DNA from: a virus
Reading direction: 5' to 3' (one strand)
Length of the DNA stretch: 23,249 nucleotides
Virus record (IMG/VR): IMGVR_UViG_3300006947_000085
Coordinates: 1-23,249 of that record
Shown here in pieces: positions 1,605-22,889 of the stretch. How positions within the stretch are numbered: position 1 is the first letter of the stretch; every line of letters begins with the position of its first letter. The notes beneath the pieces are model-generated. The model was not told the DNA's origin. It saw nothing but the letters and a program-made list of their open reading frames with translations, and ran no database searches. A program made the translations under genes and the position numbers.

Positions 1605-1641
1605 TAATTTATTGGACAACTATACAATCCGGGGAGGTGCA

Positions 1642-2106
1642 ATGTCTAGAGTTTTAAAATGGTGGTTAATGTTCTGCCTCAGTATACTACTTGGATTTAT
1701 AGCATATCATTTTGGATTAATACAAGAAATCTACACCAAAGACGTTACTAAACTAAGTCTTTTTATCTTTACCTTATACATATCATCTAGTATATACATC
1801 GGAAAAACCACATACGCTTCATTAAAAGGAGAAGATGTGTCTTCTCGAATTGATATTGGCTGGTTTACTTCTGAAAGTATGTTAGCACTAGGTATGGTGG
1901 GAACTGTTGTTGGATTTATTCTTATGCTTGGTGGTAGTTTTGAAAATATAGACACTGGTGATGCAGAAACATTAAAATCTGCGTTAAGCGACATGGCAAG
2001 GGGAATGAGTACTGCATTGTATACCACTCTTAGTGGACTAGTATGTAGTTTACTTACGAAAGTACAATTAGTTAATCTCGAAACAGGTATCAACAAAGAG
2101 GTGTAA
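1642..2106 (+). CDS. ExbB/TolQ/MotA-like proton-channel protein
   Basis: The protein has 154 residues from the ATG at 1642, which follows GGGGAGG (1631-1637) at ideal spacing; an upstream in-frame TTG at 1612 has no such site and is rejected. It is hydrophobic, with likely membrane segments near residues 5-25, 38-54, 81-98 and 122-139. Residues 84-93 (GMVGTVVGFI) and 125-138 (ALYTTLSGLVCSLL) match the two pore-lining helices of the ExbB/TolQ/MotA family, including the conserved Gly-Thr and the Thr-rich start of the last helix. In that family a ring of these subunits surrounds an ExbD/TolR/MotB dimer and converts proton flow into mechanical work. The next gene, two bases on, encodes just such a partner. 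The protein is shorter than bacterial ExbB or TolQ, with little cytoplasmic loop. Family assignment is good; its function in the phage is unknown. Confidence 0.75.
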   Translation: MSRVLKWWLMFCLSILLGFIAYHFGLIQEIYTKDVTKLSLFIFTLYISSSIYIGKTTYASLKGEDVSSRIDIGWFTSESMLALGMVGTVVGFILMLGGSFENIDTGDAETLKSALSDMARGMSTALYTTLSGLVCSLLTKVQLVNLETGINKEV

Positions 2107-2108
2107 CA

Positions 2109-2921
2109 ATGGCACTTTATCAGAAAGACAAATACAAAAGCTCAATAGGCTTCACCGATTTGTTATTTAATCTGCTAGTTGGCTTTGTATTTTTATTCAT
2201 CGTAGCCTTCATCCTAATTAATCCAATAACTAAAAAATCAGATGCTCCAAAGAAAGCAGAGTACTTAGTCATTATAGAATGGCCAAACGAATGGAATGAC
2301 GATATTGATTTATATGTCAAGGATCCAATGGGCACAGTCGTGTCATTTAGAAATAAATTTGGCGGGTTGCTACATTTAGAAAAAGATGATCTTGGGTTTT
2401 CAAATGACCAATGGATAGATGAAAACGGTGAGCGACATATTATTCCAATTAATAGAGAAGTTATAACTATTCGTGGCGTTCAAGACGGCAGATATGAAGT
2501 AGCATTTCATGTTTATTCTATTAAATCAGTTGGGTCAATAGATAAGACCTCAACCATAACTACACCACGAGTTGTTACTGCTACATTAATTAAACTTAAT
2601 CCATATAGAGAAGTAACAAAGGTACAAGTACATTACATGGCTGAACGCGGCCAAGCATTGACATTATTTAATTTCACTATTGATGGCGGAGCAACTGGCA
2701 CAAAAATTAAAGTAGACAGAGAACCTAATGATATAGTGTTGCAAGGGGTGTCTAATCATCGTGGCGAAGAAGACATTGGTGGCATTCAACCAGACCAAAC
2801 TGATGATTTTAATTCTAGTCTTGATAGAATCGTTGACCAACGAAGAGCTTCAGGTGTTATAGTTTCAACAGATGCACCAGGCGGTGGTTATCAGGAAGAT
2901 GATAACGACGCCAATTACTAA
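2109..2921 (+). CDS. ExbD/TolR/MotB-like membrane protein with beta-rich external domain
   Basis: The 270-residue protein has one N-terminal membrane helix (about residues 16-40) that begins GFTDLLFNLL. The single Asp17 at the helix start sits where ExbD, TolR and MotB carry their proton-binding Asp, and the short basic N-terminus predicts an inner-membrane anchor with the rest outside the cytoplasm. Residues 53-200 look like beta sandwiches. The stretch DIDLYVKDPMG (65-75), followed by a GG and an acidic turn, resembles the DUF2135/YfaP-type domain. No OmpA-type peptidoglycan-binding motif was seen, unlike MotB or the Zorya protein ZorB. The tail (about 215-270) is acidic and probably disordered. 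AGAGGTG before the start overlaps the end of the ExbB-like gene, so the two are coupled and likely form one complex. The family role is known; the phage role is not. Confidence 0.65.
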   Translation: MALYQKDKYKSSIGFTDLLFNLLVGFVFLFIVAFILINPITKKSDAPKKAEYLVIIEWPNEWNDDIDLYVKDPMGTVVSFRNKFGGLLHLEKDDLGFSNDQWIDENGERHIIPINREVITIRGVQDGRYEVAFHVYSIKSVGSIDKTSTITTPRVVTATLIKLNPYREVTKVQVHYMAERGQALTLFNFTIDGGATGTKIKVDREPNDIVLQGVSNHRGEEDIGGIQPDQTDDFNSSLDRIVDQRRASGVIVSTDAPGGGYQEDDNDANY

Positions 2922-2939: not shown

Positions 2940-3605
2940 GTGGACCCACTTGCTAACATTAATCTGATTATCGTATCTATACCTCCTGGAGCAGGCAGTT
3001 CGTTTTTAGGCTACCTACAAAAAGTTTATTCAGGTACTAAAGATTATAAAACTGAATCTCAATTCCCTCCATTAAACTTTTGGGATTGTATGCTCCAAAA
3101 TGTAGACTTAGTACAACATTGGGACTCAAGTCTTTTTGGTGAATTTAAAACATTTACATCAATTATAACTGAAATAGATCTAAGTTCTAAGACTGTTTTT
3201 GTTAATACACATTCCTTTCCAACCGGTGATTCACCATTTAATATGGAACATGTATCGCATGTGTTGTCAGTTGAAGGTGATTTTGATGCTCACTTATATA
3301 TGGCTAAACTGAAGTCATTGAAAACTAAAAATCCTAAGTCTTCATTTGATATTAATGATATAACTGAAAGAGCCACTAAGGCATACGAACGTCAACTTAC
3401 ATCTAAAGCCACATTTAAACCTAATACTAGTATCAATTACAATAAATTTTTCATTGATGTAGATAGAAAAGAAATATCAAAGTTTTTAATAAGGACAATG
3501 GAAATAAAACGAATTGATGAAGAGAAATTGGATATCATATGCGATATGATTGCAATATATACAAGGCTTAATCAAGCCTTAATTAAAACTACATATAATC
3601 AGTAG
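2940..3605 (+). CDS. Unknown protein with P-loop-like N-terminus
   Basis: I do not recognise this 221-residue protein securely. Residues 9-28 form a hydrophobic strand followed by SIPPGAGSSF (13-22), which looks like a phosphate-binding loop of the kinase or sulfotransferase sort. Near the end, YNKFFIDVDRKEISKFL (about 167-183) resembles the C-terminal segment of P-loop sulfotransferases that folds over the cofactor. No second catalytic motif could be confirmed. The start is most likely the GTG at 2940, because the P-loop strand begins only eight residues later and no in-frame ATG lies before it; the ATG at 2938 is in another frame and stops at once. No ribosome binding site is visible and a late promoter box ends five bases upstream. 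It may be a nucleotide- or PAPS-binding enzyme, or a structural protein with a chance motif. Confidence 0.5.
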   Translation: MDPLANINLIIVSIPPGAGSSFLGYLQKVYSGTKDYKTESQFPPLNFWDCMLQNVDLVQHWDSSLFGEFKTFTSIITEIDLSSKTVFVNTHSFPTGDSPFNMEHVSHVLSVEGDFDAHLYMAKLKSLKTKNPKSSFDINDITERATKAYERQLTSKATFKPNTSINYNKFFIDVDRKEISKFLIRTMEIKRIDEEKLDIICDMIAIYTRLNQALIKTTYNQ

Positions 3606-7174: not shown

Positions 7175-10100
7175 ATGGCAGACTTTAAAGCAACTAAACC
7201 AACAAAAGTAGGTGGTAAGCACAGAGCAGGCAAGAGGCCTGTAAACTTATTAAAAACAAATACGTTTTTACCAGAAGTATTCCAAACACCACTGAACAAA
7301 AAGTGGCTTGATGCAACTCTTGATAAAATGGTTTCCAAAGGAGATTTGGAAGACATAGATGCCTTTGTTGGCTCAACAAGTGGTAGTGCATTAGGTAAAT
7401 GGAATGATTATTATTTAAACACAAATACAAGTCATAAACAGTTACAGCCAGCAATTATAACATCTAATGATGATAAAACTCTTAAGAATGCAATTACAAT
7501 TGATGATGTAGCAAAAAACATTAACTATAATTTTGATACATATAGTTACAATAATGCATACAACACACAAAGTTATGTGTATGCTCCACCAATAGATATT
7601 GACAAGTTTGTTAATTATAGGATGTATTACTGGATTCCAGTGATGTACCCTATTCTATTTGAATTAGCGAGTGGAACAAATGTTAACCCAATTGATGATT
7701 TAACTGGATTGCCAACAGGTGAAATTACTGATGATAATGGAACAGTTACATTATATGATGGCATGAAAGTTCTGTTTATAGGGGCAGGTTGGGATCCATC
7801 TATTATTATTGGCAGAGAATGGATAGTAACAGGTGTTGGTGATAAAATTGTATTTAAAGATCCTGTAGGTTGGAATACAGATAATATATTATATACAAAT
7901 ACTGTTGATGGTGTTAATTTACCATTGGAGACAAAAGACTACATAGTAATTAATAGATCTGATTCCGCAAATAATGTCTCAGGCACCGATAGTGCTTGGA
8001 GCAGAGGTAACCATTGGGTTCATAGAGCAGCAATAGAGCATATGATTGAGTGGTACCCAGGGCTATCATATGAGGATTATATTAATTCTACAACACAGGC
8101 AAAACGTCCTATTATTGAATTTGACGCAAACATAACCATGATGGCAGGGCAAACAAAAGCAACGCCAAACCAAGCACCATTATTTAGATTAAAACATGCA
8201 TCGGGAACTTGGTTAGATGCATATAATTCAAGTAACTTTGTAGGCAACAAACTATTTGGCTATAAGGTAGCAACAACAGGCACAGCAGATACAGAACTTG
8301 ATTTTGTTCCTGTGTTTAAAGATATTGGTTCTAAAAGTGAAATGGTGTTTGTAAATGAATTAAGTCAAACAGAATATACATATTTAGAAGATCAAAGCAA
8401 CCTTAGTAATAAACTTAGAGGTTTATATTATTATGAAAGGAATGGTGTACCACATAATAATTATATAGCAAGTTCATATACAGCAGGTGCAAAAGATACA
8501 GTTCAAGTTATTGCAAATAATGATGCAGATGTTTCAATTCCAATTGGGTATCTTAGTTGGCGAAAAGATCCATTCAAATCCTTTGTTGTTTCTACTGATG
8601 ATGGAAAAATTGTAGCAAGTAGTATAACAAAAGAAGGTGATGCTAATCGTAATAATATTAAACAAAATGAATTATTTGTGGCAGCAGGCACTAGCTGTGG
8701 ATTTTATGATTTGATTGGGACTGGTACACTAAAATTTTATGATTCTTCCGGGGTTGATATAACCCCGACTCCTTCTATGACTAATGTTTTCCCACCAATT
8801 GGGTTGTCTTTGGGATCAGCGGTAAACATTCCTGCAACAGCTGGATCAGTAATATATTTTGGAACAAGTTTTGCAAATTCATCAAGAATTTATGCAGTTG
8901 ATAGTGCCGACGCACCCTTTCATAAATTACAAATAAATGGAAAAACTATTAATGAATCCAATTATACAATCTCGCCGACCACAATAACAGTACCCAAAGC
9001 ATTACTTACATCAGAAAAAAGTATTATTGATCTTGAGTATTATAATAAGGCAGAAAAAACAACAAAAGATGTGCAAGTACCTGATGTACATTCAAACAAT
9101 ACAAAAAATATACAAATTAGTGAGTTTACACAGAGTGAAACATTGGCACATTGGACAAGCATAATTGAAAATACACCTGGGTTTACTGGCGACAGTTTTG
9201 GTAATAACAATTATGCATCAACTATCCACGCCAAAGGACATGGTGGTGAAATCTTTATGCATAATGACATTAATATTATGCATGATTTATGTTATGGTGA
9301 TGATAAATTAAATATTACAACGGCACTTAGCGATCAAGGAAATGATTGGTGGGTATTTAGACAGAGATTTATTTCACAAGTTAAACGTTTATACGGCACA
9401 AAATCATATAGTGATGTACGTAGTTTGGTTATAGATGTTTTAGCAAGTACTACGGCAAGTAGAAAAGGCACTGACTTACATAAAAATTCTAATATGGCTT
9501 TTAGTAAGCCTAACAATATTAAAACACACAATACCAATGTAGCAGGCAAGTACTCATTAGGACATGGCTTTAATACAGATAACTTTAAGCAAGACCATGT
9601 TTATGTTTACTTAACTGACAATCGCGATAGTGATAATGTAGCAGTAAAACGAATATTAACGCAAGGAACTGATTACACAATTGCTGATGGGCAAGTAGTA
9701 GTAACAGCAACTGTTACAGCATTTACAGACACACAAAAAACAACAATAGGCATAGACTATAATAGCATGGACGATGACAGTTATGTACCTGCAAGTATGG
9801 TTAAACTTGGATTAGCAAGTATTTACAAGCCACAAGTACATAATAATCAACTAATTGGACATGATGGCAGCACTTATGATGTTAGTGCAACTGCAGAGTT
9901 ACATAAAATACAAAGTGCAAATTTTGATCCAGTCGCCGCATGTTTATTTGATTTAGAGAATCGTATTTGGTCAGGAACAAAAGTACAAACACAAAGTACA
10001 ACAAGTGCATTAAATTACCTACCAAATGAACAAGTAGGAACATGGTATACAAGAAGCAAAGTTGATAGTTATATTAAGTCAGAATTTTTGGATTGGTATA

Positions 10101-13100
10101 CAAAAACAAAACAAACGACACTTACTCCAACAGGATATTATGATGCATCAGATCCATTCACGTGGAATTATTCGGAAGTAAGTTTGGCTAATTATGCCGG
10201 TTGGAATGTAAGTAATTTTCCTGGACATTATACTGGTGCATATGCACTAATATTTGGCACACATACCCCACATTTGACTCCATGGCATATGCTTGGATAT
10301 TCATTTAAACCAACTTGGTGGGATACCTATTACAGTTGGACAGATGCAACTAAAAGAGCAGCATTGATTAATGCATTACAATATGGTATTATAAATAATC
10401 CTGGAGAAGCATCGGTACAAAACGTAAACTATGCAACATGGTCCTGGGATTGGTCCAGTAGATGTCCAGTTAAGACAGATGGTACATTAGACGATCCTGA
10501 TAATATATTAGTAAATCCAGGAGGCGGACTGTTTTTTGGGACTGGCAAGTCAGCACCATTTGTATTTGGCGATTGGGGGCCAACAGAATTACTTTGGAGG
10601 ACTTCAAGTTTAGGCCAATCTGCATTAGTTAACGCAGTACTTAAATTGAACCCAGCAAAAGCATGGACTGATTTCTTCCAACCATATACATTTGCCGATA
10701 ACTTTATTGGTACTTTTAAATTACATACAAGTAATTTTGCACCAATAAGTAATACAAAATTAGCATATCATACACAAGTTAATAATAGAAACGTTGCAAA
10801 AGTTACAGTTAAGAACAGCAGCGGCACTTTTCCAGTAGGAACCACAATTAATTTTGCTGGCGGAACTGACGGATTAGATGCAACAGGTACATTAGATTTA
10901 GATTCTTCTGGAAACGCAGTAGGCGTAAGTTTAACATTCAGAGGAAATGGATATACAAGCAGACCAAATATACAATTTGTTTGGCCAGTTGTGACTGCTG
11001 GTGCATTTGTAATTGGAACTGAATATACAATAGTAACACCAGGTACAACGAACTTTACATTAATCGGCGCAGCAGATAGCGATATTGGTACAGTATTTAC
11101 AGCAACAGGTGTAGGAACAGGTACTGGTACTGCAACTTATATTGGACCATCCACCTTACCAAGTGCAGACTTTAAGGTAACATTAGTAGATGATAACAAT
11201 TTTACATTGGGTATTAATAATGCTCAAGTAAATCATTTCCATAGAAATGACATAACATCAGATATAGTTGACTCATATAAAACAGTAGCGACAAAACTTG
11301 CACAACCACTAGGCGGCTTTAGTAGTGATCACTTATTAGAAGTATTAAGTGAAAGTGGAGCGGCTGGTAAGTTTAGATTAAGTGAGAAAGATGCTTCATT
11401 AAGTTTTTATGGTGGTAACTCTTTTGATTTATATCATGCAAGTGTTATTAATATAGAAAAAACTGCAAGTGGTTATAGTGTTGCTGGCGTAAGCAAATCA
11501 CGACAAGAATTTAAATTTAATTTACCATTAGAAACAAATAATGATTTCACAAGTGTTACAGTAAACTCAGACACATCATTAACAAAATATAAAAACTTTG
11601 TGACTACAACAAGTGTTGCTGAGTTTGGAACTATATTTGCTCGAATACAAGACACATATAACTTTATACGTGGTAATTATAATTATATGTCTGATAGCGG
11701 GTATACTTTTGTTGGTGCGGTTGGCGATGCCAAAGCATTAGATTTTGCAAAGTGGGCCATAGGCGCAAGTATAGGTGACAAATATACTGTTCCATTAGGT
11801 ACAAGTATTGGTTTTGATAGAGCTGATGGAGTTGCAGTTGCATATGGTAGTTTGCCTGGTAACATTAATAGCATACACGCTCTAAATAAAGCAGGTGAAA
11901 TAGTAAAGATTAATTTTAGTGATCTATGTATTGACAGGGACGGTACTAAAGTATCTATAATGCCACGTGATACAATCTCTACGGCAAAAACAGCAACGGC
12001 AGTAACAACGTATGAAACAATACAAGGTGCTGGCGTAGTATCAACACCAATTAACGAAAGTATAATAAGTGTTGAAACAGCAGTAACTACTTTTGAACAT
12101 TTGCTGGTAATTAACAATATAACACAATTTAATGAAACAATATTTAATGACATAACAAGCGAAAGACATTCGAGATTACAGTTAAGAGGACAGCGCACAC
12201 GTAACTGGAAAGGAACAACACAAGCACCAGGTTACTTAGTTACAGGCAATACTATTATACAAAACTTTGACACACTTGTTGAAGATATACAAGACTTTTA
12301 TAATTTTGATGTAAGTAAATTTAACACAGACATTACCAAGGCAGAAAACTATACAATGAGTAATAGTTATGCTAGAGATTGGGTACAAACTTTAGGACTA
12401 CCAGCAAATACTGTTAGTCAGTTTTATAAAGGTATTATTAAACATAAAGGTAGCAAGACAGCAATTGATCGTATTGATAGAACTAACCTTGTAAATGAAG
12501 GTAGAAGTAAAGTTTCAATGGCAGAAGAATGGATGTTGGCTTCAGGACATTATGGTGATACAACACGTACAAAAGCAACTGAAATTAAAATTGATACAAC
12601 AACATTGCATGACAAATATAATGTTATTGATTTGGCAAGTGGTAGTATTGAATTTGTAAATAATGAAGCAATTCCAGTATTTTCAACAAGTTCATTTAGC
12701 GACTCACCTGCATTATTAACGGCTGGTGAAGTACTAGCAACAGAGTATGATTACGTTGCTAAAAACTTAAATGAAATGGTTGATGTATTTGATAGTACAA
12801 AAGCATATGCAAACGTTAGAACATGGACTAGTAGTACAAGTTATAAGAGAAATGATTTAGTAAGGTACAAAGGCGGACTTTGGAAATGTAGTGTACCTAG
12901 TATTGGTATAGGAGCTCAATCATTGTCGTTTAATACTACAAATACAAAAGGTCCAACTAATACATTTACACATAGAAATGCCGTTAGTGATCCAAGTACA
13001 CCAAGTATTACATTGGATGGTGTTGATATATGGTTTGATCAAAAGGTTGATACATATGATAACATTATTGAAAATGGATCAATAACAACTCCAACAGTTA

Positions 13101-16100
13101 CATTTAATAATACATTAACCGTAGGAGATGGTAGCGTAGGTGACTTAATCACAACGTTTAATGAAACCTATGATGTAACAAGCATTGATGATGATGGCAT
13201 ACTACTAACTGGAACTCCGAATTCAATATCATACCGATCCAACTCTCCAACATATAATGGTAATCCACATGTTATATCATCAGTTGTAACAGGAACAATT
13301 CATGATGTTACTGACAAAGTATTGCTAATTGGCACCAATTTACTAGGAGCAAATCGAATTACTGTTCCGTTAGAAGGTAAAGGTACAAGTGTTGCAGTTA
13401 GTACAACAACAGAACAATTTAGTGGTGATGGGTCAATAGTTGACTTTACAGTAGCAACTCCATTAGTGATAGCAAACGCAACTGATAGAACAATTAGTGC
13501 AGTAAGAGTCGGCGGTGTAACAAAAGCAACACCGGCAGACTATTCAGTAAGTGGGCAAGTTGTTACGTTTACAGTAGCACCACCAGTAGGAACAAACAAT
13601 GTTGCAATAGATATACTTAATCCGGCACATATAACATTGACCGCAGCTCAACTTAAATTGGCTTGGGATAGTACACAACTAAGACAAAATGGAAATGATG
13701 TATATTTACAGGCTGACGTTATTGACAATAATAAAACTGCAATTTGGTTTGATGCGAAGAGTAGTATAGCAGCTCAATTAATTATTGACGGCTCAACACC
13801 ATCAGGTAAAATAAATGCGGCAATTGAACTTGGATTTACTCCAGCAACATATACGCCAATTTTAAAAGTAACGGCAACTGATCAGCCACAAACATTGGCA
13901 ATGGTAATAACAAAATTAACAGCAACACATGGGTCTACCCCATATACATTTACTGATGTAGGCAATGCCTTACAAATTTATAGATCAGTGAATCATATTC
14001 CAACTGCCGGTGCATTTATTATTGGCAAGTGGTATGTAATATCAACAATAGGCACAACAGACTTTACATTAGTTGGTGCACCTGATAGTAATGTTGGAAC
14101 AGTATTTTCAGCAACAGGTGTAGGAACAGGTACAGGAACTGCAAAAGAAGTATTTGATGCAAGTGTAACAGGCTCAGTAACTGATCTTGTTATAAGTGGC
14201 ACCGCACTTACAGAATTAGGACTTTCGGCCACTACATCACATGGTGCGGCAACTGGTACAATAAATGTACGACCAACACCAGCACAAATAGTATCTACAA
14301 TAACTGCGGCAGGTGTGGCAAATACTACAACAACATATGATGGCACAGCATTTTTTACTATAAGCAAAAGCACAGGAACTCAAATTAATTTAGGCAGTGG
14401 AGAATTTAATACAGAGAGTGGATTAGCAACAGGAGTCCAATCAATATCATCATCGCCAAATACATTCACAACAGCAGAATGGGGTAGCACTAACGTAAAT
14501 GATACTGATACTGCATTATTTAATATTTGGTTAACAAATGATAATGAATTACCAAACAAAATTACCAGTGATATTACAAGTAAATATTATGATTGGAATG
14601 TACAACAAGTACAAGCAATGCCATCTAATGGAGCCTGGGCAGATATTGTCGCAGGTGATCAAAGTGATCAAGGTAATGATGCAAAATTATCATTAAAAGA
14701 TATTAATGACAATGCAATTGTATCAAATATTATTGCAGGCGATTATATAATGATTGTTAATAGTACAACAGTACCAAACATTGATGGTATTCATAAAGTA
14801 TCAAGTGTACACCCAACTGAAACAAATTCATTTTATATAGACACGTTTATTGAAACTTCAGGTAATGCGCCAGGTATATTTGTGCTACGCAGTTCAAGAT
14901 TTAATACTATTGCTGACATGAATAAAAGCCTTACGAGAACTGCTTATTATAATTGGGCAGAAGGTGACATGGCATGGACTACTAAAAACTCATTGAATAT
15001 AGGCAGCACAAACGTATACAAATATGTTAGTGGTGTGTGGACATCATTACGTACAACAACTGAAAGACCAGTTAATAGCAAGATTGAAAACATGCACATA
15101 TATGATGTGAAAACAAATAATGTTACTGTAGAAATGGAAGTATTTGATCCATTACGTGGGATTATTCCTGGAGTAGCACAACGTGAATTAAACGAAACAA
15201 ACAAAATAGACGTCGCAGTATATAATAATAGTACAGACACTAATTACGATACAACGAATAGAGAGTATTGGGGCGAGGCACAAATTGATAATACTTGGTG
15301 GGACACTAGTACCGTTAAGTACTTTGATTACGATCAAAGTAATAATGAATACAAGAGTACCTATTGGGGATCTCAAATTCCTGGATCATCAATTGATGTT
15401 TATGAATGGACAAAGTCAACAGTATTACCAGAAGATTGGAAAGATGCAGTTGATAATAATCTTCAACAATATGGAGTAATTGCAACAGGTGACGCATATA
15501 GTGTAACTGACTCTACTGGTGAAGTATTATATTATTACACACAAGACGATGAATGGAATAAAACATTTTCCAGATATGATACAGTATATTATTTCTGGGT
15601 TAAGAATAAAACAACACTATCAGATAGCACAGCGGTTGCACAAGGTCGCATATTAAGTGTAAGTGATATTGCTAGTATTATTAATGATCCAACAGGAAAC
15701 GGAATTTCTTGGTGCGCAGCCATAAGTGGTACGGCATTTATAGTTAATAACATAACCGCATACATAAATGACTCAAGCACAATATTACAAATTAATATAA
15801 AGCCAGATGGTATAAGCCATAATAGTTGGACAGTAATTGCAGAAGATTTAGATGAGATACCAGATTATTGGTATATTGGATTAGATGATAACTTGCGTGG
15901 CACCCAACGAGTTACAGACTTACCACTCCCAAATCCAGCAGTACATGTATATAATCGTTATGGTGATCAACGTAAAATGACACACAATGCTAAAACGGTT
16001 GCACAAGGTTGGTTTAAAGATAAGTGGGACGCAAGATATGAAGCCATTAGTATTATTAATAGGCTATTGAAGAACCAAAACTTAGTTGATAATTTATCAA

Positions 16101-17431
16101 CTAAATGGCATAGAATCATTAGTAAGAAATGGATGCCTTCAGTTGTAACTGCAAATAGTAGCGGAACAACATTCCCAACAACTGGCGGATTTGTTGGCTA
16201 TATTTTTTATTATGAAACAACAAAAGTTTATTATACAATTGTTGGAATGAGTGCATTAGGATATGATTGGGAACAAACTGCAGGTTATGATATGACTCGT
16301 ACTTGGGAATACACAAATTATGTAAGTCCAACCAGAGTTACTTCACAGTTACCAAGTTTAGAAATAACAGCCGTTACAGATCTTAGCAGTATTGATACAA
16401 CTAAGCACCAAGTTGTGCAGTTTACAATACCAATAGAGAGTGATGGATTTGATAGAAGTGAAATTTATCAATACAATATAAAAACAAGTAAATGGGAATT
16501 AGCAGAAAAATTAAATGCTACAATTGCCTTCACTGATTTTGTTTGGAATAAAAATGGACAAATAGCGTGGGATATGGCAGGTTGGGGCGGACTATGGGAT
16601 CCAGATACTGCAGAGTATGTTGGATATATTATTAAAGCATGTAGAGAAGATTTATTTATTGAACAATATAAACAAAACTTTAATAAGTTGTTTATTGGAA
16701 TTATGAAATATGTAACAAGTATACATGATCAAGTTGATTGGTTATACAAAACAACTTATATTAGACTCAATATTAATACAGACATTGTAACAGATAATTC
16801 CATTAAGAAGTTTGTAAGGAATACAGTTAATGAAGTTAACTCATATGTTAACGCAGTTAAACCATTCCACACAAAAATTAGAGCAACTACTGATACGCAG
16901 AATGTAATTGAAAGTGATTGGAATGCAGGATTTACAGAGCATTTAGGAATAAATGTAGTAACAAATACAAGTGGCTCAACAGAAAACGCATCCACAAGAA
17001 CTTATGCGTATTTACAAGACAATTCACTAGATGTCTTTGCTTATAGTTTACAAGATAATGCAAGAACAACAACGTCTGGTGCATTGACGACTGCGACAGC
17101 CAACATTCCAGTAGTAGATGGCGCCAAGTTTAGTGGAAGTGGCGGAACGGCATACCTAAATGGTGAAATTATTTCTTATACAGGTGTTAGTAGTAACACA
17201 CTTACAGGAATAGCGAGAGGTATAGCAGAAACGTTAAATAGAAAACATGAATCGGGAAGTGTAATTATTGACTTAGACGGTTCAGTACTGAGGACTATAA
17301 CCTCAATAAGAGACAACGCCTCAACGGCCAATTTTGATGTGGCTACGGGCAAGAGTATACTAGATGGTACAGCAGTTGACTTAGATAGTCAAGACCTGCA
17401 AGGTACCACACGAGGGTGGAATCTAGGATAA
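7175..17431 (+). CDS. Giant virion structural protein (gp7 position, baseplate or tail)
   Basis: This 3418-residue protein fills 44% of the window. Its place right after gene 6 is that of T4 gene 7, but T4 gp7 is about 1032 residues and I cannot show homology. The N-terminus has HRAGKRPVNLL and FLPEVFQT (16-38) and PPIDIDKFVNYR (about 140-151), as in the giant structural proteins of marine T4-like phages. Other parts are a GHDGS motif (895-899) followed by an acidic helix; a roughly 49-residue module present twice (about 1274-1321 and 2277-2324); a patch like a CBM5/12 carbohydrate-binding module (about 1880-1910); a GDGS beta-sandwich (about 2080-2150); and a terminal domain of the GEIISYTG...TGIARG type (about 3300-3370). 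Residues about 3150-3250 form helices with VRNTVNEVNSYVNAVKPFH. It most likely builds the outer baseplate or a fibre and may bind the host. No frameshift was seen. Confidence 0.8.
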   Translation: MADFKATKPTKVGGKHRAGKRPVNLLKTNTFLPEVFQTPLNKKWLDATLDKMVSKGDLEDIDAFVGSTSGSALGKWNDYYLNTNTSHKQLQPAIITSNDDKTLKNAITIDDVAKNINYNFDTYSYNNAYNTQSYVYAPPIDIDKFVNYRMYYWIPVMYPILFELASGTNVNPIDDLTGLPTGEITDDNGTVTLYDGMKVLFIGAGWDPSIIIGREWIVTGVGDKIVFKDPVGWNTDNILYTNTVDGVNLPLETKDYIVINRSDSANNVSGTDSAWSRGNHWVHRAAIEHMIEWYPGLSYEDYINSTTQAKRPIIEFDANITMMAGQTKATPNQAPLFRLKHASGTWLDAYNSSNFVGNKLFGYKVATTGTADTELDFVPVFKDIGSKSEMVFVNELSQTEYTYLEDQSNLSNKLRGLYYYERNGVPHNNYIASSYTAGAKDTVQVIANNDADVSIPIGYLSWRKDPFKSFVVSTDDGKIVASSITKEGDANRNNIKQNELFVAAGTSCGFYDLIGTGTLKFYDSSGVDITPTPSMTNVFPPIGLSLGSAVNIPATAGSVIYFGTSFANSSRIYAVDSADAPFHKLQINGKTINESNYTISPTTITVPKALLTSEKSIIDLEYYNKAEKTTKDVQVPDVHSNNTKNIQISEFTQSETLAHWTSIIENTPGFTGDSFGNNNYASTIHAKGHGGEIFMHNDINIMHDLCYGDDKLNITTALSDQGNDWWVFRQRFISQVKRLYGTKSYSDVRSLVIDVLASTTASRKGTDLHKNSNMAFSKPNNIKTHNTNVAGKYSLGHGFNTDNFKQDHVYVYLTDNRDSDNVAVKRILTQGTDYTIADGQVVVTATVTAFTDTQKTTIGIDYNSMDDDSYVPASMVKLGLASIYKPQVHNNQLIGHDGSTYDVSATAELHKIQSANFDPVAACLFDLENRIWSGTKVQTQSTTSALNYLPNEQVGTWYTRSKVDSYIKSEFLDWYTKTKQTTLTPTGYYDASDPFTWNYSEVSLANYAGWNVSNFPGHYTGAYALIFGTHTPHLTPWHMLGYSFKPTWWDTYYSWTDATKRAALINALQYGIINNPGEASVQNVNYATWSWDWSSRCPVKTDGTLDDPDNILVNPGGGLFFGTGKSAPFVFGDWGPTELLWRTSSLGQSALVNAVLKLNPAKAWTDFFQPYTFADNFIGTFKLHTSNFAPISNTKLAYHTQVNNRNVAKVTVKNSSGTFPVGTTINFAGGTDGLDATGTLDLDSSGNAVGVSLTFRGNGYTSRPNIQFVWPVVTAGAFVIGTEYTIVTPGTTNFTLIGAADSDIGTVFTATGVGTGTGTATYIGPSTLPSADFKVTLVDDNNFTLGINNAQVNHFHRNDITSDIVDSYKTVATKLAQPLGGFSSDHLLEVLSESGAAGKFRLSEKDASLSFYGGNSFDLYHASVINIEKTASGYSVAGVSKSRQEFKFNLPLETNNDFTSVTVNSDTSLTKYKNFVTTTSVAEFGTIFARIQDTYNFIRGNYNYMSDSGYTFVGAVGDAKALDFAKWAIGASIGDKYTVPLGTSIGFDRADGVAVAYGSLPGNINSIHALNKAGEIVKINFSDLCIDRDGTKVSIMPRDTISTAKTATAVTTYETIQGAGVVSTPINESIISVETAVTTFEHLLVINNITQFNETIFNDITSERHSRLQLRGQRTRNWKGTTQAPGYLVTGNTIIQNFDTLVEDIQDFYNFDVSKFNTDITKAENYTMSNSYARDWVQTLGLPANTVSQFYKGIIKHKGSKTAIDRIDRTNLVNEGRSKVSMAEEWMLASGHYGDTTRTKATEIKIDTTTLHDKYNVIDLASGSIEFVNNEAIPVFSTSSFSDSPALLTAGEVLATEYDYVAKNLNEMVDVFDSTKAYANVRTWTSSTSYKRNDLVRYKGGLWKCSVPSIGIGAQSLSFNTTNTKGPTNTFTHRNAVSDPSTPSITLDGVDIWFDQKVDTYDNIIENGSITTPTVTFNNTLTVGDGSVGDLITTFNETYDVTSIDDDGILLTGTPNSISYRSNSPTYNGNPHVISSVVTGTIHDVTDKVLLIGTNLLGANRITVPLEGKGTSVAVSTTTEQFSGDGSIVDFTVATPLVIANATDRTISAVRVGGVTKATPADYSVSGQVVTFTVAPPVGTNNVAIDILNPAHITLTAAQLKLAWDSTQLRQNGNDVYLQADVIDNNKTAIWFDAKSSIAAQLIIDGSTPSGKINAAIELGFTPATYTPILKVTATDQPQTLAMVITKLTATHGSTPYTFTDVGNALQIYRSVNHIPTAGAFIIGKWYVISTIGTTDFTLVGAPDSNVGTVFSATGVGTGTGTAKEVFDASVTGSVTDLVISGTALTELGLSATTSHGAATGTINVRPTPAQIVSTITAAGVANTTTTYDGTAFFTISKSTGTQINLGSGEFNTESGLATGVQSISSSPNTFTTAEWGSTNVNDTDTALFNIWLTNDNELPNKITSDITSKYYDWNVQQVQAMPSNGAWADIVAGDQSDQGNDAKLSLKDINDNAIVSNIIAGDYIMIVNSTTVPNIDGIHKVSSVHPTETNSFYIDTFIETSGNAPGIFVLRSSRFNTIADMNKSLTRTAYYNWAEGDMAWTTKNSLNIGSTNVYKYVSGVWTSLRTTTERPVNSKIENMHIYDVKTNNVTVEMEVFDPLRGIIPGVAQRELNETNKIDVAVYNNSTDTNYDTTNREYWGEAQIDNTWWDTSTVKYFDYDQSNNEYKSTYWGSQIPGSSIDVYEWTKSTVLPEDWKDAVDNNLQQYGVIATGDAYSVTDSTGEVLYYYTQDDEWNKTFSRYDTVYYFWVKNKTTLSDSTAVAQGRILSVSDIASIINDPTGNGISWCAAISGTAFIVNNITAYINDSSTILQINIKPDGISHNSWTVIAEDLDEIPDYWYIGLDDNLRGTQRVTDLPLPNPAVHVYNRYGDQRKMTHNAKTVAQGWFKDKWDARYEAISIINRLLKNQNLVDNLSTKWHRIISKKWMPSVVTANSSGTTFPTTGGFVGYIFYYETTKVYYTIVGMSALGYDWEQTAGYDMTRTWEYTNYVSPTRVTSQLPSLEITAVTDLSSIDTTKHQVVQFTIPIESDGFDRSEIYQYNIKTSKWELAEKLNATIAFTDFVWNKNGQIAWDMAGWGGLWDPDTAEYVGYIIKACREDLFIEQYKQNFNKLFIGIMKYVTSIHDQVDWLYKTTYIRLNINTDIVTDNSIKKFVRNTVNEVNSYVNAVKPFHTKIRATTDTQNVIESDWNAGFTEHLGINVVTNTSGSTENASTRTYAYLQDNSLDVFAYSLQDNARTTTSGALTTATANIPVVDGAKFSGSGGTAYLNGEIISYTGVSSNTLTGIARGIAETLNRKHESGSVIIDLDGSVLRTITSIRDNASTANFDVATGKSILDGTAVDLDSQDLQGTTRGWNLG
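10991..11140 (+). repeat. Protein-coding repeat module, copy 1
   Basis: This stretch encodes TAGAFVIGTEYTIVTPGTT and ends VGTGTGTATY within the giant protein (residues 1273-1322). It matches the stretch at 14000-14143 at both protein and DNA level, including the identical string GCAACAGGTGTAGGAACAGG. Such Gly/Thr-rich modules recur in marine phage virion proteins as exchangeable surface units. Confidence 0.75.
14000..14146 (+). repeat. Protein-coding repeat module, copy 2
   Basis: This stretch encodes PTAGAFIIGKWYVISTIGTT and ends VGTGTGTAKE (residues 2276-2324 of the giant protein). It is about 3 kb downstream of copy 1, in the same frame and orientation, with similarity running along the whole module and several conservative changes. 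Confidence 0.75.
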
Positions 17432-20140: not shown

Positions 20141-20641
20141 ATGAATAATGTACTTGATATACAACTGTTACCAATTCTAGTAGCACTAGGATTTTTATCT
20201 ATTGTAACTCTGTGGACTATAATAAAATATTATAAAAATTCACTTATAGTTGCAATACTAATTCCGTTAACTATTATATCTTTTACAACAACTTATATTA
20301 CATTGGAACGAGTGTTAGGTTATCCAATTGACTTAACAATACCCGAGGAGAGCATTTATCTTTCTCATGTAGTTTCTGATTATAATAATGTAATATATGT
20401 CTGGATTCTTGAACCTGGTTCAACAATACCGCGATCAATAATTATTCCATTAACTAAAGAAAATAAAGAGCAAATGAGAGCTGCCAAAAAACGACAAGCA
20501 TCTGGTATCCCTCAAATGATAAGGAAGGACGGTGATAATTTGGCAGGCGTCGGCCAAACAAAAGGCGGGGACTATGTGCTATATAATTTTCAAGTATCAG
20601 ATCCCGAAAATTTAAAAGAGATAGAAGAAGGCACTGAATAA
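20141..20641 (+). CDS. Two-helix membrane protein, unknown function
   Basis: I do not recognise this 166-residue protein. Two hydrophobic helices lie near residues 8-28 and 35-55, joined by a basic loop (KYYKN), which predicts a hairpin with both ends outside the cytoplasm and the loop inside. The soluble part (about 60-166) has a strand-rich stretch, YNNVIYVWILEP (about 80-91), and then a basic helix (KENKEQMRAAKKRQ, about 104-117) and an acidic end. The start at 20141 follows AAGG (20131-20134) and overlaps a six-codon frame that begins at 20128. It is first in a block of four membrane or exported proteins, so it may be a subunit or an anchor for them. Confidence 0.7.
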   Translation: MNNVLDIQLLPILVALGFLSIVTLWTIIKYYKNSLIVAILIPLTIISFTTTYITLERVLGYPIDLTIPEESIYLSHVVSDYNNVIYVWILEPGSTIPRSIIIPLTKENKEQMRAAKKRQASGIPQMIRKDGDNLAGVGQTKGGDYVLYNFQVSDPENLKEIEEGTE

Positions 20642-20672: not shown

Positions 20673-20963
20673 ATGAATGCAATTTTAGTAACAGGTATAT
20701 ATATAGTCTCCATTTTTAATGTACAACTTGGAGCACCAATACTTAGTTTTGTTCCAATGACAACAATGGAAGAATGCGAGAGACTCGTACCACATTTTAC
20801 TGGAGATCAAAAGATAGATATTGAATGGACTATGTATATGAGATCACAATGCTTAACAATGGACGAATACCAAGAACGAGTTCGAGCCATGGAAGCGGCA
20901 CAACGTGGCGAAGTACCAGGCCCACAAAAACCACAAGAACAATCAAAGCCAGGGGGTGAATAA
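20673..20963 (+). CDS. Small exported protein with two cysteines, unknown
   Basis: The 96-residue protein starts with a short hydrophobic stretch (about residues 3-18) that could be an uncleaved anchor or a weak signal peptide; there is no basic start and no lipobox. Two cysteines, Cys35 in MTTMEECERLVPHF and Cys60 in MRSQCLTMDEY, are placed as in small secreted proteins where they pair in a disulfide. The C-terminal quarter is rich in Pro, Gln and Lys and is likely disordered. CGGGGAG (20659-20665) precedes the ATG, and the stop shares one base with the next gene's ATG, so translation is coupled to the protease. Its function is unknown; an exported cofactor or substrate of the protease is a guess. 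Confidence 0.65.
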   Translation: MNAILVTGIYIVSIFNVQLGAPILSFVPMTTMEECERLVPHFTGDQKIDIEWTMYMRSQCLTMDEYQERVRAMEAAQRGEVPGPQKPQEQSKPGGE

Positions 20964-21859
20964 TGAAGAAAATATTAAATTTCTTAAAAGAGTCAATACA
21001 ACAAGTATGGTTATATAGATTTATAACTCAGCCTTTACAACATAAGGTAGGATGGATTATACTTATTGCTATGATTGGTTCAGGATCCTATTACGGTCCT
21101 ATATATTATGATAAGTTTATGGTAATGTATGAAGAAGCAAATAATGGAGAAGATGATGATGAAGATGATGTACAAGGAATTACCTTCACGCAGGTTGACA
21201 CACATTTATATACGTTAACCGGCACAATTAAAGAAGATGATTGTGAGAAAATTGTACCATTATTACCTCAAGCATTTACTGTTATATTAGAGTCACCAGG
21301 TGGTAACTTAGCAGAAGGTTCGTGTATCGCTGCGCATTTCAAGTTACGCAATGTTGTTACGGTTGTCCGTAATACACCAGTGTTAAATGATGAGGGGAAG
21401 GTAATATATGATCCAGGAGTTTCAACTCGAAATGACTATATTAAACAAGGCATGAGTCCAGAAGATTTAGACGATCTTAGAGAATCACAAGGATATCCAA
21501 AGGTTGTATGTGCAAGTGCGTGTGGAGTTATATTTTTAGGTGGTGCGAAACGATACTTAGTTGGTGAAGTGATGTTTGGCATACATGGCCCAGCGACTCC
21601 AGAAGAGTCTCTGAAAACTATGAATAGAAGACAATTAGAAACAACAAGTTATAGAACTGCTTCAAGTATATTACGATTGCTAGAGCAGTTAGGGGTACAT
21701 GAAAGTATTCGTTTGTTGTTCATACAAATACCTAGTCATTCCATGTACTGGTTACATCCAAATGATTTTGATGCTAGACCAGGATTAATTACAATAGCGA
21801 CAAATTATAAGAACTTTTTTGGATTTGAGAATAGTGATTTAGAAGGTGGGTTAAGATGA
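20963..21859 (+). CDS. Membrane-anchored ClpP/SppA-fold serine protease (COG3904-like)
   Basis: The 298-residue protein has a basic N-terminus, one membrane helix (about residues 29-48), a very acidic linker (EDDDEDD, 63-69) and a C-terminal ClpP/crotonase-fold domain outside the cytoplasm. SPGGNLAEG (111-119) matches the strand-turn that forms the oxyanion hole of ClpP and SppA proteases. CASACGVIFLGG (183-194) holds the presumed nucleophile Ser185 between two cysteines, and FGIHGP (205-210) the presumed catalytic His208. This is the pattern of the predicted periplasmic proteins of COG3904. The third catalytic residue could not be fixed. A Thr/Asn/Asp-rich insert (about 137-175) separates the two catalytic motifs. 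The gene is one base overlapped with the small protein upstream and ten bases from the SbmA-like gene, so the three are co-translated. Substrates are unknown. Confidence 0.75.
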   Translation: MKKILNFLKESIQQVWLYRFITQPLQHKVGWIILIAMIGSGSYYGPIYYDKFMVMYEEANNGEDDDEDDVQGITFTQVDTHLYTLTGTIKEDDCEKIVPLLPQAFTVILESPGGNLAEGSCIAAHFKLRNVVTVVRNTPVLNDEGKVIYDPGVSTRNDYIKQGMSPEDLDDLRESQGYPKVVCASACGVIFLGGAKRYLVGEVMFGIHGPATPEESLKTMNRRQLETTSYRTASSILRLLEQLGVHESIRLLFIQIPSHSMYWLHPNDFDARPGLITIATNYKNFFGFENSDLEGGLR

Positions 21860-21869
21860 GGAGAATAAT

Positions 21870-22889
21870 ATGTTAAAAAGTTTTTTTATTGGTAGATCTT
21901 ATTTTATATATGCTTGGTTTATGTTGGCATGGTTACTAGGAATTACCTGGTATAGTGTTGAGATACTTGTATTTTATAATGCATGGAACAAAGAATTTTA
22001 CGATGCAATACAAACACTTCAAGAAGAGAGGTTTTGGGAATTGCTATGGGGATATGATCTAACGAGATTATGGCAACTGGCAAGTCTGACTGAAGAAACG
22101 ATGCCTAGTTTCCTAGAGATTGTTTCATTATACATTCCAATTTCAGTGTATGCAGTATGGCAAACACAACGATATTGTTTCAGATGGAGACAAGCAAACA
22201 CTCATTATTATTTAACTCGATGGGAAACGTCAAAAGCAAAGATAGAAGGTGGAAGCCAGAGAATGCAAGAAGATCTTATGATATTTGGTAAAACATTGCA
22301 AGGATTATTTACTGGATTCTTTAGTGCAGTACTTATTCTTATTGCGTTTATACCAATTCTATGGGAACTATCAGAAGGATTGCCAATATGGAATGGACAG
22401 ATTATTCCAGGATTCCTTGTTTGGGTAGCACTTACCATATCAATTGGCGGCACATTAATTTCATTCATATTAGGTTATAAATTACCTAAACTTGAATATA
22501 ATAATCAGGTAGTAGAAGCAAAGTTTCGTAAGAAATTAGTATATTCAGAAGATGATTACTCACAGAGATTAACCTCAGAGTTATTTCCAATGTTTACTGC
22601 AATTAGAAAGAACTATTATAGACTTTTTAATTGGTACATGGGATTTGGCGTATGGCAAACCGCGTTTGGTTTTGTTGCAGGTAACTTAGCGATTGTTGTA
22701 CTTGCGCCTAGTTATTTTGCACAGTTAATCACATTAGGTGTTCTATTCCAGGTATTAAATGCCTTTGGTAGAGTTGAAAGTAGTATGACTTTCTTTATTG
22801 ATCGTTGGACAACAATTGTTGACTTCCAATCAGTTATTAGACGTATACGTGAATTCAACAAGGCACTAGACGAAGCAGACAAATTATAA
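21870..22889 (+). CDS. SbmA/BacA-like inner-membrane peptide transporter
   Basis: This 339-residue membrane protein lines up with E. coli SbmA through most of its length. The pairs include YNAWNKEFYDAIQTL (36-50) against the SbmA NAWYAPFYDLIQTAL, EGGSQRMQEDLMIFGKTLQ (126-144) against EGAAQRVQEDTMRFASTLE, KLPKLEY and VEAKFRKKLVYSEDD (204-229) against KLPGLEF and VEAAYRKELVYGEDD, and AIRKNYYRLF (244-253). SbmA and BacA are homodimeric importers that use the proton gradient, not ATP, to carry proline-rich peptides, microcins and related cargo; no ATP-binding motif occurs here. E. coli SbmA has 406 residues, so the first membrane helix region is shortened. GAGGAG (21858-21863) precedes the ATG. 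The gene ends the membrane block. The homology is strong; the cargo and whether it transports during infection are inference. Confidence 0.88.
   Translation: MLKSFFIGRSYFIYAWFMLAWLLGITWYSVEILVFYNAWNKEFYDAIQTLQEERFWELLWGYDLTRLWQLASLTEETMPSFLEIVSLYIPISVYAVWQTQRYCFRWRQANTHYYLTRWETSKAKIEGGSQRMQEDLMIFGKTLQGLFTGFFSAVLILIAFIPILWELSEGLPIWNGQIIPGFLVWVALTISIGGTLISFILGYKLPKLEYNNQVVEAKFRKKLVYSEDDYSQRLTSELFPMFTAIRKNYYRLFNWYMGFGVWQTAFGFVAGNLAIVVLAPSYFAQLITLGVLFQVLNAFGRVESSMTFFIDRWTTIVDFQSVIRRIREFNKALDEADKL

Follow-up and report, generated by a model that had tools for sequence, protein, structure and literature searches.

Introduction

Flagella, gliding, outer-membrane uptake, division and phage defence all draw on ion-driven motors of the MotA/TolQ/ExbB family. 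In these machines a channel ring surrounds axle helices, and an aspartate carries the proton. The closest described systems are ExbBD-TonB and TolQRA, which combine a PF01618 channel protein and a single-helix partner bearing an aspartate in a three-gene layout; the MotAB stator, with a torque-generating cytoplasmic domain in MotA and an OmpA-like peptidoglycan-binding domain in MotB; and the Zorya defence pair ZorAB, with a long ZorA tail, a ZorB peptidoglycan domain and the partners ZorC/D/E. Non-flagellar MotAB homologues, called the GIT clade (generic ion transporters), bear assorted DUF appendages according to a 2025 mBio survey, and its passages on that clade name neither the A-B-C set described here, nor the C subunit, nor phage copies (PMC12505986).

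Here we describe a three-gene set, A-B-C, that appears to be a further branch of this motor family, with its own external domain and a third subunit. Roughly one in ten genomes sampled from two large proteobacterial groups carries it, as do at least 424 viral contigs. We found no annotation or paper naming it; our search for a description covered the open literature.

Results

Gene A and its channel family

The window, the whole stretch of DNA analysed, comprises 23,249 nucleotides of a marine phage contig (positions 1 to 23,249 of IMG/VR record IMGVR_UViG_3300006947_000085). The genes of the system are labelled A, B, C, D, E and F. The first two lie as follows:

about 1631..1637, + strand: Shine-Dalgarno sequence of A (GGGGAGG), read in the sequence
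1642..2106, + strand: A, MotA/TolQ/ExbB-type protein of 154 aa (Pfam, PDB profiles, residue conservation)
2109..2921, + strand, ATG at 2109: B, 270 aa, starting 2 bases after A (AlphaFold2, Foldseek, hhalign, alignments)
2157..2159, + strand: codon of the conserved Asp17 of B (alignment)

The reading frame of A runs from the ATG at 1642 to a stop at 2106 behind a strong Shine-Dalgarno sequence, and both A and B have good ribosome-binding sites. A first-pass annotation, made from the letters alone, had proposed these gene positions with their two-base gap and an ExbB/TolQ/MotA-like protein at 1642. The two frames are indeed located there, and A scores above the gathering cut-off of PF01618 (MotA_ExbB; 31.3 bits against 22.9, E=2e-7, residues 82-142). 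Cellular A proteins score 34-43 bits with the same model. PDB profile matches of A were weak and pointed to MotA and TolQ, the best being MotA 8gqy. By inspection, A has four transmembrane helices with a very short loop between TM2 and TM3.

Alignment of 204 sequences showed conservation of G84, G87, T88, G91, A125, T128, T129 and G132. Among the pore residues, G87 was found in 204/204 sequences, G91 in 203/204 and T88 in 194/204. Thr129 was present in 201/204; the remaining three rows are gapped there, so it is kept wherever aligned. Judged by its sequence, A is a member of the MotA/TolQ/ExbB channel family PF01618. Both genes are under purifying selection in comparison with the nearest relative, L005 (NG86), with dN/dS of 0.06 for A and 0.16 for B.

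Gene B and its external domain

The AlphaFold2 model of B, built from a 72-row alignment (mean pLDDT 80), consists of one helix (residues 11-37), a beta-sandwich (50-203, mostly pLDDT >90) and a disordered, acidic tail. All 72 aligned homologues keep Asp17 at the helix start. In a larger hmmalign alignment, 182 of 208 rows carry aspartate in this column, and most of the other 26 have one a few residues away. B thus has the hallmark of ExbD/TolR/MotB-type axles, a single transmembrane helix at the N terminus that carries an acidic residue close to its beginning. The model and alignments agree with the earlier description of a single helix opening on Asp17 and of an acidic tail.

No Pfam family matched B with hmmscan, including PF02472 (ExbD/TolR), and profiles of B, C and E found nothing useful in the PDB. 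A single hhalign comparison with DUF2135 (PF09906) gave a probability of 95% (E 1e-8), which upholds the DUF2135/YfaP-like external domain first proposed. Foldseek matched the model to TerD (3ibz; E=1.6e-4, probability 1.00, TMt 0.49), with no sequence match. The modelled sandwich may therefore be likened to YfaP/DUF2135 on profile evidence and to TerD in its fold; compared with YfaP and TerD domains, the similar domain is here fused to the axle-type helix of a proton-channel pair. The absence of a peptidoglycan-binding motif from B, also noted at first reading, fits both the lack of a Pfam match and the different fold.

Comparison with known ion-driven systems

A-B-C shares with ExbBD-TonB and TolQRA the PF01618 channel protein, the single-helix partner with its aspartate and the three-gene layout. 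However, A has only 154 aa and its cytoplasmic loop is very short; B has no PF02472 domain, and its modelled YfaP/TerD-like beta-sandwich matches the fold of TerD but neither that of ExbD nor that of TolR; and C, unlike TonB and TolA, has two transmembrane helices and no TonB/TolA domain. The likeness to the MotAB stator lies in the four predicted transmembrane helices of A and the aspartate at the start of the B helix, whereas A lacks the torque-generating cytoplasmic domain, B lacks the OmpA-like peptidoglycan-binding domain and flagellar genes were absent among the neighbours examined. ZorA profiles were the nearest defence models of A (weak matches, E 4e-5). The best NCBIfam ZorA score was nevertheless 20.4 bits against a cut-off of 500, and B had no PADLOC match. 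The long ZorA tail, the ZorB peptidoglycan domain and ZorC/D/E are missing, and A-B-C is carried by phages. A Zorya-type defence pair was rejected on the missed cut-offs and absent partners. The initial view that the pair is distinct from MotAB, TolQR, ExbBD and Zorya is therefore borne out by the profiles and the fold of B.

A third subunit and the A-B-C set in viruses

A and B belong to a larger gene set, whose remaining genes are found at the far end of the window:

20141..20641, + strand: C, third subunit, 166 aa (phmmer and profile matches to C of other loci, AlphaFold2, Foldseek)
20673..20963, + strand: D, small protein, secreted or membrane-bound, of some A-B-C-D-E-F modules (homologues immediately after C in L006, L063 and L086)
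20963..21859, + strand: E, membrane-anchored ClpP/SppA-like predicted serine protease (family alignment, adjacency to F)
21870..22889, + strand: F, SbmA/BacA-family peptide transporter (Pfam SbmA_BacA)

C adjoins A-B in the relatives and is relocated in the window. The AlphaFold2 model of C contains two transmembrane helices and a small periplasmic alpha/beta domain. Foldseek matched this model to the corresponding protein of Rhizobium phage RHph_Y68 (E=5.5e-8) and to nothing in the PDB, so that C has no recognisable fold beyond its own family. Among sufficiently long relatives, A, B and C occur together in 131 of 137 loci, and nearly all of the other 6 are cut by contig ends or masked stretches. 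The stand-alone pair envisaged in the first-pass annotation is accordingly replaced by a set of three. That annotation had also proposed looking for the pair in other T4-like phages; it was found in other phages, for instance in Rhizobium phages, usually with C alongside.

Profile scans recovered B from at least 424 viral contigs, and tblastn from 21-24 Rhizobium phage records; in the first three of the latter looked at, the third gene directly follows A-B. The culturable Rhizobium phages P10VF, RHph_N3_13 and 16-3 carry A-B-C or a divergent relative, which makes the question of A-B-C directly testable. The profiles recognised only two of the three subunits in 16-3 and in TM3_3_14B. Rhizobium phage RHph_I1_18 encodes a vWA protein close to the set.

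In the window, A-B follows a clamp-loader gene and lies shortly before baseplate-type genes. The relatives are mainly beside genes for gp46/47, the clamp, the clamp loader, DNA polymerase, ribonucleotide reductase, ThyX and topoisomerase, and in TM3_3_14B A-B-C lies outside the lysis genes. There is no T4 late-promoter word upstream of A, which is weak evidence, as the word is rarer than chance across the window. A late or lysis region had been assumed at first; given the replication and nucleotide-metabolism neighbours of the relatives, a late or lysis role is unlikely, and a lysis cassette was rejected on the same ground.

Partners of the phage set

F matched SbmA_BacA (PF05992) with 261.5 bits (cut-off 24, E=1.6e-77) but stayed below the NCBIfam SbmA equivalog cut-off (236.7 vs 492). 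It is a clear member of the SbmA/BacA family that is here phage-borne and paired with a ClpP-like membrane-anchored protein. The latter, E, had no Pfam family and no PDB profile match; its family alignment conserves ESPGG...CASxC...GIHxP, and from this signature E is predicted to be a serine protease.

After the relocated C, the order in the window is D, E, F. The full order A-B-C-D-E-F is contiguous in L006, L063 and L086, and E-F-A-B-C is contiguous in L067, L089, L093, L094, L096, L104 and L109; a ClpP gene is often present as well. A third arrangement, A-B-C followed by a lipoprotein, SbmA and an HtrA-like protease, occurs in L012 and L024, and in L019 without the lipoprotein. HtrA/trypsin-like proteases neighbour A-B-C in 4 marine phage loci, and a trypsin-like protease is found a few genes from the set in Rhizobium phages 16-3, TM3_3_14B and N3_13. 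That two unrelated types of protease occupy the same place argues that proteolysis is part of the function, and from this gene company A-B-C would seem to serve periplasmic proteolysis, at least in part.

The association holds from either side. Among 67 dereplicated viral loci, 18 carry SbmA and 10 carry E, arranged in either of two orders; the corresponding counts among 50,697 catalogued phage records are 3 and 0. A chance neighbourhood of SbmA was rejected on this comparison. SbmA/BacA-type transporters were detected on at least 447 viral contigs. Of 78 loci collected by working outward from SbmA, 32 carry E as well as A, B and C. E adjoins F in all 63 SbmA loci that hold both; 33 of these 63 also hold A-B within the examined stretch, nearly all directly adjacent. 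Where E-F stands alone, B is elsewhere on the contig in 5 of 26 records, as in the window. A related record of 342 kb holds both A-B-C and E-F. In 49 of the 67 phage loci no SbmA lies within the examined stretch, so the core must work without it.

A-B-C on bacterial chromosomes

The set had been regarded as peculiar to phages, a view contradicted by its wide distribution on bacterial chromosomes. Searching bacterial assemblies with the B profile yielded 27 loci, a few of which, L111-L114, resemble phage sequence that ended up in bacterial bins. A-B-C lies between fumarase-like and aconitase-like genes, on contigs of up to 820 kb, in ~20 marine gammaproteobacterial genomes that are streamlined and, from their context, SAR86-like. 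It is present in 17 of 398 sampled Pseudomonadota, in 28 of 249 genomes from an order that gene content suggests is Hyphomicrobiales and in 28 of 229 genomes from a class that gene content suggests is Gammaproteobacteria, a frequency of about 11-12% in the last two groups.

The cellular neighbours vary and include two-component systems, a Sel1-repeat protein, a vWA/FHA protein and an L,D-transpeptidase. In gammaproteobacterial loci L366, L367, L369, L371, L382 and L384, a vWA+FHA protein is encoded close downstream of C. About a quarter of the cellular loci lie in or beside clusters for PQQ-dependent alcohol dehydrogenases (L155-L157, L368, L378, L379, L385, L386, L389, L396, L398 and L402), and representatives scored above the NCBIfam cut-offs for TIGR03075, 03861, 03863, 03864, 03866, 04557 and 04558. 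Such dehydrogenases scored above cut-off in 33 of 41 genomes with A-B-C and in 6 of 39 genomes lacking it that came from the same draws (Fisher p=3e-9; genomes not matched for phylogeny). This link offers a second, independent route to function.

Canonical ExbD-type proteins are present in 10 of 12 ABC-bearing genomes tested, and replacement of host ExbBD/TolQR was rejected on that count. SbmA family members occur in 12 of 20 ABC genomes. A linkage of SbmA to the set in cells was also rejected, as the phage SbmA profile labelled none of the genes shown around cellular A-B-C.

Phage and cellular branches

In a quick maximum-likelihood tree of B, most cellular sequences form one supported group, and marine phages and Rhizobium phages stand largely apart from cells. 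As few as 3 changes between phage and cell are needed, with some long branches unsure. The 16-3-like phages group with a handful of divergent copies from cells; these long branches are of unsure placement. Recent capture of a host gene was rejected given the mostly separate positions of phage and cellular B in this quick tree. The span from Asp34 to Gly84 of A measures 38-58 residues in phage or phage-like copies and 91-112 in SAR86-like cells, while other cells have a median of 114 (58-129); the cytoplasmic loop of phage A is thus some 50-60 residues shorter. The mostly separate phage branches and the consistently shortened A suggest that the machine benefits phages.

Discussion

Our preferred reading, held tentatively and with somewhat less than even confidence, is that a proton-driven A-B-C complex handles envelope proteins or peptides together with a protease and SbmA import. 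What confidence we have in the proteolysis and import comes from the gene company of A-B-C. From the gene content, conservation, domain architecture and recurrent linkage of A-B-C observed above, we infer a 5:2 assembly, proton flow, energy coupling, a target, a direct partnership with protease and SbmA, and a benefit to the phage.

In such a mechanism, A, B and C would assemble into a single ion-driven complex in the inner membrane, of MotA/TolQ/ExbB type, with A as the multimeric channel wheel, probably a pentamer, and B as the axle, probably a dimer, whose Asp17 would take the proton. B would put its YfaP/TerD-like, possibly metal-binding, sandwich into the periplasm beside the periplasmic domain of C. 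Because the short cytoplasmic loop of A leaves little for a cytoplasmic rotor, work would probably be delivered to the periplasm through the sandwich of B and through C. Phages encode the shortened set along with a predicted serine protease, periplasmic or membrane-anchored, and many marine phages add an SbmA-type proton-driven peptide importer. The proton gradient may then drive the presentation or unfolding of envelope proteins or peptides to the protease, with the fragments being imported, and the gain may be that periplasmic peptides are cleared, detoxified or salvaged during infection. Against this reading, cellular A-B-C adjoins PQQ-dehydrogenase clusters, two-component systems and other genes, not SbmA. 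The many phage loci without SbmA, the lack of a recognisable fold for C beyond its own family and the absence of Pfam or PDB matches for E count against it too. More doubtful is the broader proposal that A-B-C constitutes an undescribed class of three-subunit ion-driven motor, common in Pseudomonadota, of which old phage lineages keep a stripped-down branch coupled to periplasmic proteolysis and peptide import.

The first-pass annotation had suggested dissipation of the proton gradient, lysis timing or exclusion as possible roles, whereas the neighbouring genes favour periplasmic proteolysis and peptide import. The alternatives are taken in order of falling belief. Superinfection exclusion or counter-competition, in which an altered envelope or membrane potential would bar phages or bacteriocins by a machine Zorya-like in its place but used by the phage, is unlikely. 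It would suit the standing of ZorA as the nearest defence model of A, the neighbouring replication and nucleotide genes and the position outside the lysis genes in TM3_3_14B. The fold closest to that of B is TerD, and both phage inhibition and colicin resistance have been associated with ter loci. However, ZorB, ZorC and ZorD are absent, the NCBIfam ZorA cut-offs are far off, and streamlined bacterial chromosomes stably carry the same complex next to housekeeping genes. Exclusion would leave SbmA and the protease unexplained as partners, although SbmA could import toxic peptides.

Envelope upkeep comes next and is less probable again. Here a Tol/Ton-like force transducer would maintain the outer membrane and periplasm during a long infection, with B and C touching an outer-membrane partner. 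The channel, the axle and the third periplasmic protein do recall the layout of TolQRA and ExbBD-TonB, several phages have a lipoprotein (cluster 6) immediately after C, and L,D-transpeptidase and lipoprotein genes are neighbours in bacteria. The TonB/TolA domain and any peptidoglycan- or Pal-binding motif are nevertheless missing, and with canonical ExbD-type proteins in most ABC genomes tested a replacement would be unneeded.

The dehydrogenase link bears on another candidate, an energiser of uptake that would drive import of a nutrient or cofactor as ExbBD drives TonB and would be borrowed by phages to feed the infected cell. PQQ-dependent alcohol dehydrogenase clusters use imported or metal cofactors; cellular A-B-C tracks these enzymes and sits inside their clusters, and phage A-B-C pairs with the importer SbmA. 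We regard this candidate as improbable, since it lacks a TonB-like protein and its PQQ comparison is not phylogeny-matched. Least credible, to the point of being very improbable, is lysis timing or dissipation of the proton gradient through an open channel: the pair does precede baseplate-type genes closely in the window and a deregulated channel would collapse the gradient, but its relatives sit beside clamp loader, gp46/47, DNA polymerase, ribonucleotide reductase and ThyX genes, the late-promoter word is missing before A (a weak point), bacteria keep A-B-C on their chromosomes and B retains its full conserved periplasmic domain.

Other features of the window

The 221-aa reading frame at 2940-3605, with a GTG start, had no family match and was otherwise seen only in L005 within a subset of the loci. 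The clamp loader homologue at 584-1510 has its nearest relatives in jumbo phages (PA5oct-like, Phosso and Atu_ph07). Among the baseplate-type genes, positions 7175-17431 are occupied by a single reading frame of 3,418 aa.
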